DNA from: Linanthus parryae
Taxonomy: Eukaryota; Streptophyta; Magnoliopsida; Ericales; Polemoniaceae
Length of the DNA: 64,000 nt
Direction of reading: 5' to 3'
NCBI GenBank assembly: GCA_023055425.1
Contig: JALGPY010000004.1
Location: 64,875,718-64,939,717, forward strand
Numbering within the stretch: the stretch's first letter is position 1; each line of letters opens with the position of its first letter. The notes beneath the pieces were generated by a model that worked only from the letters and a program-made list of their open reading frames with translations, had not been told where the DNA came from and ran no database searches. A program made the position numbers and the translations under genes. Shown here piece after piece: positions 62,173 to 62,802 of this stretch.

Positions 62173-62240
62173 TTAATCTTCTTCCTCGTCACTTTCATCC
62201 ATCTCTTCCTCTTCATTGGAATCATACTCGTGCTCTTCAT
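61851..62240. repeat. 195-bp tandem duplication spanning the 3' end of the extra ORF
   Basis: Two nearly identical 195-bp units (61851-62045 and 62046-62240), both starting CCCAAAAGTGATTATTC and ending CTCGTGCTCTTCAT. They contain the last 22 or so codons, the stop codon and the 3' flank of the ORF at 62802-62173. A second, orphan copy of the C-terminal coding end therefore lies downstream. Confidence 0.93.
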
Positions 62241-62802
62241 CTTCTCTCGGGTCTTCTTCACTTTCTTCATACTCCATGGGATCTTCTTCAATCTCGGGGT
62301 ATTCATCGACATCTTCCATTGGATCTTCTTCGACTACCTCATCGTCACTAGAGTCTATAATAATCACCTCTTTTTCATTACTAGAGCTTATGTAGATCAC
62401 GTCTTCTTCATCACTGGACTCTATCTCAATAACTGTATAACTTTGCCACTTAAGATAAGTATCCATCAATAGCTTGCATATAAAATCTGCACTCACCGTC
62501 CATTCACCTTGGCAACGATAATCCCTATCATTCAGACGATTCAACCTGCCCATGATGTTGCTATACTTTGTAATAATTTCCCCAAACATGGGTTTCATAG
62601 GTAATGCCTTCACCATACAGTAGGCCTGAAAAGCTGGATTTCTATACCGAGGAAAATCTAAGGCTTGGAATCTATCTTCACAATATTGAACCACGCGGTC
62701 ACAAAAATCTGGAAAGTCTTCACCTTCGACCCAACGTGTAACAACAGGGTGCTTCTCAACTGGCAACACACGCTTCCTTGCTGTATGCTTAGTTCTAGCC
62801 AT
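62173..62802 (-). CDS. Extra retroelement ORF: histone H3 tail mimic, SIM-like repeats, acidic tail (209 aa)
   Basis: An intact ORF between primer site and gag, sense to the element, whereas gag-pol is decayed. Residues 1-10 are MARTKHTARK. Histone H3 starts MARTKQTARK, so 9 of 10 match, keeping R2, T3, K4, T6, R8 and K9. After residue 10 there is no H3 similarity. Residues 28-120 are a globular-looking region of unknown family (EDFPDFCDRVVQYC ... LLMDTYLKW). Residues 124-127, 135-138 and 146-149 are VIEI, VIYI and VIII, each followed by serine/acidic residues: three SUMO-interaction-like motifs at an 11-residue period (33-bp DNA repeat). Residues 155-209 are almost all acidic with EEDP repeats. 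A chromatin-facing accessory protein is inferred. An acidic host-derived gene fragment is the alternative. No relative comes to mind. Confidence 0.75.
   Translation of the reverse strand: MARTKHTARKRVLPVEKHPVVTRWVEGEDFPDFCDRVVQYCEDRFQALDFPRYRNPAFQAYCMVKALPMKPMFGEIITKYSNIMGRLNRLNDRDYRCQGEWTVSADFICKLLMDTYLKWQSYTVIEIESSDEEDVIYISSSNEKEVIIIDSSDDEVVEEDPMEDVDEYPEIEEDPMEYEESEEDPREDEEHEYDSNEEEEMDESDEEED

Follow-up and report, generated by a model that had tools for sequence, protein, structure and literature searches.

A histone H3-tail-like start on a 5' additional open reading frame of a Tekay-type chromovirus in Linanthus parryae

A stretch of 64,000 nucleotides of the Linanthus parryae genome (assembly GCA_023055425.1, contig JALGPY010000004.1, positions 64,875,718 to 64,939,717; hereafter the window) carries a Tekay-type chromovirus in which an extra open reading frame (ORF) of 209 codons opens like the N-terminal tail of histone H3. 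The question raised by this locus is whether that start is a mimic of the H3 tail or a basic tail that came to resemble H3 by accident. Place and sequence mark this ORF as the 5' accessory gene of a large Tekay chromovirus superfamily, and its tail somewhat probably functions as an H3-tail mimic engaging host readers or writers of the H3 N-terminus. Accessory ORFs at the 5' end of Tekay elements are known in several plants without an established function, and a conserved histone-tail start would give a concrete and cheaply testable handle on one of them.

The additional ORF and the chance of its H3-like start

The ORF was read on the minus strand from an ATG at 62802 to a stop ending at 62173, and the protein begins MARTKHTARKRVLPVEKH. 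The preliminary description of this DNA had held that nine of the first ten residues (Met counted) are those of H3, that the match begins at the start codon itself and that the remainder is not a histone. All three statements were borne out by the reading frame and by Pfam and PDB searches with the window ORF, which gave no histone match and no histone fold after the tail. The ORF was also found where it had been placed, upstream of gag: it is a sense ORF between the primer-binding site (PBS) and gag of a Tekay-type chromovirus and is common to family members, as defined for an additional ORF (aORF) or ORF0. The codon-position bias of the aORF was gene-like, its own frame scored best with gag-derived codon usage, and none of 2000 Markov simulations of the leader produced an open frame as long as the aORF. 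The leader before the aORF measured 386 nt with five short closed upstream ATGs, and the 1.27 kb from the aORF to the gag start contained 30 ATGs.

Among the 1507 ATG-started decapeptides of the window, the runners-up showed four matches to H3. The composition-based chance of at least eight of the nine residues after Met was 5e-10 per ATG, or approximately 7.6e-7 per window. For an empirical null, a prokaryotic collection of 257 Gb was scanned with a pattern that allows Ser for Arg. This produced 15 matches, namely five full-length-like H3, two H3 fragments, five with Ser for Arg and three non-histone MARTKxTARK starts on ORFs of 28, 155 and 19 aa. H3-like starts therefore do turn up by chance, roughly once in 10^11 bases, a rate similar to the composition-based one; the 155-aa archaeal ORF (L002, from a Thermoplasmata metagenome-assembled genome) opens with MARTKPTARK. 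In the PDB, residues 4-13 of a Giardia histone H3 chain (7d69) read MARTKHTARK and were identical to the ORF start at 10 of 10 positions. Homologue searches with the window protein (P0001) and with its residues 1-130 found none, and no relatives of the window ORF were found in viral contig searches. With gag as control query, 641 proteins were returned at E<=1e-10; 120 of these were listed, and the named ones in that list came from plants. The searched database therefore does hold plant elements. Small transposon ORFs may have been left unannotated in that protein database.

Copies in the genome and selection on the ORF

The genome assembly holding the window comprises 1.514 Gb. The protein query gave 6239 candidates in it, and the best 150, which were scored, were all 93-100% identical over nearly the full length; 145 of these 150 had, by our count, no internal stops. 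The genome search for MARTKxTARK that had been proposed gave 568 exact matches, some of them true H3 genes, and 0 for the reversed control. Of the 100 tail matches listed, 87 had H, R, T, I, K or L at H3 position 5 and the other 13 had Q. The Q-type matches among those listed lay within about 1 Mb of contig C1, and all four that were fetched were H3 genes; the H3 genes of this genome diverge from the ORF beyond residue 10. Beyond the tail, the identity of R- and T-type copies to three H/L-type copies was 54-82% and varied with the pair and the stretch compared. Many fetched R-type loci were broken shortly beyond the tail. The I-type shared 39% identity with P0001 across 116 residues; it starts MARTKITARKS, with S10 also as in H3. 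In the I-type locus L096, a PBS, the aORF and a 40%-identical gag start followed in the same order, in agreement with the expected place of the copies between PBS and gag.

These copies bear on the alternative that the H3-like start is a one-off coincidence and the ORF decays neutrally. Only one copy was known at the outset, and the long terminal repeats (LTRs) of the window element differ by a Kimura two-parameter distance of 0.046, corresponding to approximately 1.8-3.3 My at two assumed rates, 1.3e-8 and 7e-9. However, hundreds of copies in its own genome, conservation of residues 1-10 in other copies and low ratios of nonsynonymous to synonymous substitution (dN/dS) already contradict it, and a one-off coincidence was rejected as having next to no probability.

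The dN/dS ratio, whose computation had been suggested, showed purifying selection between subfamilies from codon 11 onward. Copies for this comparison were found by the tail pattern, and 11 were hand-picked from those fetched. The H-type copy L049 compared with seven T- and R-type copies gave proportions of nonsynonymous differences (pN) of 0.12-0.28 and of synonymous differences (pS) of 0.50-0.83, with dN/dS of 0.07-0.15 where computable. With the window copy and L091 added, dN/dS was 0.07-0.18 and pS about 0.5-0.84. No dN/dS was obtained for 16 of the 55 subfamily pairs, in which synonymous sites were saturated. Among 30 H-type copies, sites with a shared minor allele numbered 8, 2 and 45 at codon positions 1, 2 and 3, and divergence was 0.031 in the aORF, 0.058 in the leader, 0.057 in part of the LTR and 0.076 downstream. 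The dN/dS of 0.083 within these 30 copies is too low because they were chosen by protein score. Overall, the ORF is under purifying selection across the family. The preliminary description had also pointed out that the ORF is open while gag-pol is broken. This was seen, gag being shifted in frame and pol fragmented (Table 1); as an argument from one copy alone it was weak, and its support comes from the dN/dS of the family.

Retention of the tail was then read in samples blind to it. The internal motif MVKALP[M/I]xPMFG, searched as degenerate DNA, had 494 matches in the genome, of which 100 were listed, and the compared region was contig C1 with the first 18.02 Mb of C2, which interior and tail listings both cover. 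An exact MARTKxTARK stood at the expected distance in 49 of 70 interior-motif ORFs; the starts of the remaining 21 were all fetched and types were set by an interior codon. The H-type (53) comprised 43 exact and 10 deviant starts, with changes at A7 (6), R8 (2), K4 (1), A1 (1) and Met (1) and none at R2, T3, T6 or K9. In the 17 T/R-type ORFs, T3, K4, A7 and K9 were present in all, R8 in 16, T6 in 14 and A1 in 13. A further 15 loci held three exact H-type starts and 12 T/R-type copies, one of them not colinear; in this second T/R set of 11, T3 and R8 were retained in 11, K4 and T6 in 10, A7 in 8 and A1 in 6.

For the I-type, residues 12-79 as query gave 1106 candidates, of which 150 were scored and 40 top ranks fetched, leaving aside the query's own locus and C101:73285127. 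Three proved to be H- or T-type, and 31 of the remaining 37 places were colinear by flanking residues alone. At least six of nine tail positions matched H3 in 22 of these 31 copies, and S10 was present in 26 of the 31. One I-type subfamily (KTR/VRTK-TRTK; L138, L139, L140, L142 and L164) starts four codons earlier than the others. It was set aside post hoc, so counts are given with and without it, and without it 22 of 26 copies matched at six positions or more and 13 at seven or more, while position 5 was never Q in these 26. The MVRTK, MVRSK and MVKNK starts of this subfamily lie near R2-T3-K4 of H3 and resemble the VRTK start of PAF15. A stop lay inside the match in 16 of the first 25 I-type places; many of these copies have decayed, which argues that their tail signal was inherited and is not recent.

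H3 position 5 was the one that differed systematically between the H, R, T and I types; T3, K4, R8 and K9 were mostly kept, and R2 varied in some T/R-type copies. A conserved histone-tail motif in a non-histone protein, as a histone mimic is defined, was found with the exceptions of R2 in the T/R-type and of the VRTK-TRTK subfamily. With this subfamily left out, a stop codon stood immediately 5' of the start in 95 of 117 loci (17 of 26 in the I-type), so that the tail stays N-terminal. In the window this stop is the TAG of a pyrimidine-rich tract, and similar tracts with TAG were seen in examples from all four types (H, R, T and I), and this TAG may also be a 3' splice acceptor.

The tail as a possible H3 mimic and the rival explanations

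An H3-tail mimic would work as follows. Once Met is removed, the A-R-T-K-x-T-A-R-K tail would be exposed with a free end. Behind it the protein has a small predicted helical region, between one and three SUMO-interaction-like motifs and, at the C-terminus, an acidic stretch. A nuclear accessory protein would thus show a false tail to host readers or writers of H3 and act as a competitor or recruiter, blunting or redirecting the silencing of the element. Candidate targets would be enzymes that methylate K9, readers of the K9 type, proteins such as the VIM/UHRF1-like ones that read the free N-terminus in the PHD manner, and SHH1, a reader of K4me0 together with K9me. The best-kept core across the H, T and R types was T3-K4-x-T6-A7-R8-K9, which, with the drift of R2 in the T/R-type, suggests that the K9 half matters more than an R2-dependent K4. 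With moderate confidence, the tail would serve the writers and readers of H3K9 as a decoy or as a scaffold.

Several observations weigh against a mimic of the H3 tail. A strict two-site mimic, of K4 and K9, was not kept everywhere in the tails compared: R2 was retained in only 8 of the 17 T/R-type ORFs and in 4 of the 11 of the second T/R set, with V or I common instead, and K9 in only 8 of 11 of that second set. A7 was the weakest position, kept in 10 of 26 I-type copies and changed in 6 of 53 H-type copies. Six of the 37 I-type places were not colinear at the tail, and the five-locus I-type subfamily (MVRTK in three, MVRSK in one and MVKNK in one) has lost TARK. The identity of I-type copies to H3 over Met and nine tail positions was only slightly above their identity to the query over positions 12-37 (0.69 vs 0.58 in 26 copies; 0.63 vs 0.59 in all 31). 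In young copies the tail was no better conserved than the remaining codons, with pN of 0.0139 in the tail vs 0.0076 for codons 11-125. The dN/dS rose to 0.18-0.42 for T-R and T-T pairs and 0.24-0.62 for R-R pairs, as would be expected of old dead copies. Finally, H-, R- and T-type copies have R rather than S at position 10, and from work on G9a an R10 may disfavour K9 enzymes.

The chief rival explanation accepts a selected accessory gene and proposes that the N-terminus is basic for the sake of import into the nucleus or of binding to nucleic acid, the H3 likeness being a single ancestral accident. All copies have one origin, so the likeness may be one chance event kept for other reasons; conservation in the tail is roughly that seen elsewhere in the ORF, the H, R and T types read TARKR, which forms a basic cluster, and the archaeal MARTKPTARK demonstrates that such a start can arise by chance. 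Sunflower and grass 5' aORF proteins are also predicted to be nuclear (PMC11728184). Less easily explained by a basic tail are the pattern of change, in which variation falls on position 5 and, for some of the T/R-type, on R2, with T3, K4, R8 and K9 mostly kept, the S10 of most I-type copies, which is as in H3 and adds no basic residue there, and the low chance probability. We regard an accidental likeness as less probable than an H3 mimic.

Another origin of the likeness would be capture, in which the 5'-terminal part of a host H3 gene supplied the tail and was fused to an unrelated ORF. The codon AGG at R8 was common to the six tails compared and the four host H3 genes read, AGA at R2 was common to the six tails and three of the four genes, one R-type copy had two synonymous mismatches to the nearest H3 gene (P 0.026), and S10 in the I-type lengthens the match. 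For the other five tails, codon likeness to H3 did not exceed what chance would give (P 0.11-0.29; six tests in total), and no similarity was seen beyond residue 10. Apart from weak support from the one R-type copy, the codons do not support capture, which was rejected as improbable.

The preliminary description had further proposed that the mimic could tether the integration machinery to itself through the integrase chromodomain. The same element does encode such a domain, of group II and with both Tekay motifs, RNTRNK and EEATWEAE, and stretches of it were 88% and 68% identical in L097 and L098. The published Tekay signature is (K/R)X(L/T)RX(k/r) and EEXTWEXE in group II without Y24 and Y48 (PMC3350952). 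By reading against PMC3350952 and PMC6317226, of the three residues of the aromatic cage only W is kept and the other two are absent; sunflower Tekay elements likewise keep only W (PMC11728184). Self-tethering through the element's own chromodomain is therefore unlikely and was rejected.

Histone mimicry is already known from viruses and host proteins. Influenza NS1 carries a histone-tail-like motif in a parasite protein, as the window ORF does, and differs in that the motif is C-terminal, has four residues and belongs to an animal RNA virus. The PAF15 motif is N-terminal and starts VRTK; a PDB search for a chain with the PAF15 tail found none. The SNAG motif is also N-terminal and its sequence is not ARTKxTARK. 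VANC proteins are not known to resemble histones. The PAF15 H3-like motif is ubiquitylated by UHRF1 and the methylated motif of LIG1 is read by the UHRF1 Tudor domain (PMC8594673), so that an H3-like motif in a non-histone protein is used there by the DNA-methylation maintenance machinery; both are mammalian cellular genes, whereas the window ORF is a plant retrotransposon gene. SNAG-domain factors (Snail1, GFI1) bind LSD1 by an H3-like motif (PMC12612597), which stands in for the H3 tail and, in contrast to the reading preferred here, recruits a corepressor. VANC proteins of VANDAL transposons are plant transposon accessory proteins that counter silencing (PMC11728184, PMC12844716), but they belong to DNA transposons and act sequence-specifically. 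On the host side, SHH1 recognises H3K4me0 together with K9me2 and directs Pol IV to 44% of its targets; the ZMP PHD prefers the unmodified H3 tail (both PMC9699677); Arabidopsis VIM proteins except VIM6 have a PHD finger and no Tudor domain (PMC8594673).

Among Tekay elements, 5' aORFs have been reported in sunflower Tekay group 2, in rice Retrosat2, RIRE3 and RIRE8, and in maize and sorghum relatives (PMC11728184, PMC3485330). The window ORF resembles them in clade, in its place between 5' LTR and gag, in sense orientation, in fast evolution and in many copies, those proteins being predicted nuclear. Compared by description, the sunflower protein has 402 aa and is proline-rich, whereas the window protein has 209 aa with SUMO-interaction-like repeats and an acidic tail. 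The available parts of PMC11728184 and PMC3485330 make no mention of an H3-like start in known Tekay aORFs, and the extra-ORF survey of PMC6317226 took at least 250 codons, so a 209-codon ORF would have been missed there. No H3-tail mimic in a plant transposon was found among the papers listed by searches of the open-access literature; if the mimic is real, it would be the first in a plant transposable element as far as that literature shows, and retrotransposon histone mimicry would be a direct route from an element to the H3-reading silencing machinery. A more specific and rather doubtful proposal is an anti-silencing protein with a false H3 tail and SUMO-interaction modules, carried since before the subfamilies split, which would lure the H3K9 and DNA-methylation machinery (for example SUVH methyltransferases, VIM or SHH1) away from new copies or inactivate it there. 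Position 5 would then be free because the readers do not need it, and the R2 swap in the T-type lineage would be a shift in target.

Other parts of the protein, the element and its surroundings

The features of the ORF and of the element, which runs on the minus strand from 5' LTR, PBS and aORF through gag, pol pieces and chromodomain to the 3' LTR, are as in Table 1. The domain order is that of Ty3/gypsy elements (gag, protease, reverse transcriptase, RNase H, integrase) with an integrase chromodomain, present in pieces. A Pfam scan of the integrase part 56666-57010 gave no match.

Table 1. Coordinates of the ORF and element features in the window
Feature	Position	Strand	Basis or remark
5' additional ORF (aORF)	62173..62802	-	209 aa, intact; codon-position bias, Markov leaders, copies
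H3-tail-like N-terminus, M-ARTK-H-TARK	62773..62802	-	10 codons
Pyrimidine-rich tract ending in TAG right before ATG	62803..62820	-	in-frame stop, possible 3' splice site
Predicted helical middle part, about residues 18-119	62446..62751	-	single-sequence model, low confidence, mean pLDDT 48
Three 11-residue repeats, SUMO-interaction-like	62338..62433	-	cores VIEIESSDEED / VIYISSSNEKE / VIIIDSSDDEV
Acidic C-terminal tail, residues 156-209	62176..62337	-	34/54 D/E
195-bp tandem duplication over ORF 3' end	61851..62240	.	sequence comparison
5' LTR	63189..64000	-	runs past window end; 94.7% identical to 3' LTR, 818 columns
3' LTR (part aligned to 5' LTR)	53720..54536	-	LTR alignment
Primer-binding site TGGTATCAGAGC	63175..63186	-	exact in 25/30 copies; initiator-Met tRNA type
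gag + protease	59246..60901	-	frame broken at 60727/60728
Reverse transcriptase piece (RVT_1)	58340..58798	-	domain match
RNase H piece	57811..58488	-	domain match
Integrase zinc-binding piece	57229..57717	-	domain match
Integrase core + C-terminal pieces	56444..57010	-	assigned by position and sequence
Chromodomain, group II, Tekay-type	56301..56462	-	RKPVKILD...EEATWEAE

Residues 124-155 form the three repeats, which arise from a 33-bp unit repeated in tandem at 62345-62424; each has a hydrophobic core with acidic or serine residues after it, in the manner of SUMO-interaction motifs (SIMs). The SIM pattern was composed only after the sequence had been seen; by shuffling, three such motifs occurred in 4 of 5000 trials for residues 121-209 and in 9 of 5000 for residues 121-165. 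One SIM-like motif was present in the R-type copy L053, two in the T-type copy L065 and three in the window. The 33-bp repeat multiplies the SIM-like motif, and its copy number varies between these single examples of subfamilies. In I-type L096 a VIEID core was present beyond in-frame stops. The 195-bp unit occurs twice in the window copy and once in each of 29 other copies.

Elsewhere in the window, the repeats at 36091-37807 and 41458-43187 are 98.4% identical and are likely LTRs. They bracket an ORF at 37934-39124 (+) of 396 aa with a Cys-rich start (CFHCRGNHEDEDACITWCYVC), which had no Pfam match and is not gag-pol, and 36091-43187 may be a further non-autonomous element that carries a gene of its own. 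At 20415-24555 (+) lies what is likely a gene of the host that encodes a YTH domain (m6A reader), with the Pfam YTH match in 23938-24555. Finally, remains of copia-type gag/pol were found at 1610-5460 (+) and 51341-53718 (-); 4024-6405 shares 80% identity with 51341-53718 across 2.4 kb, and the chromovirus directly adjoins the latter.
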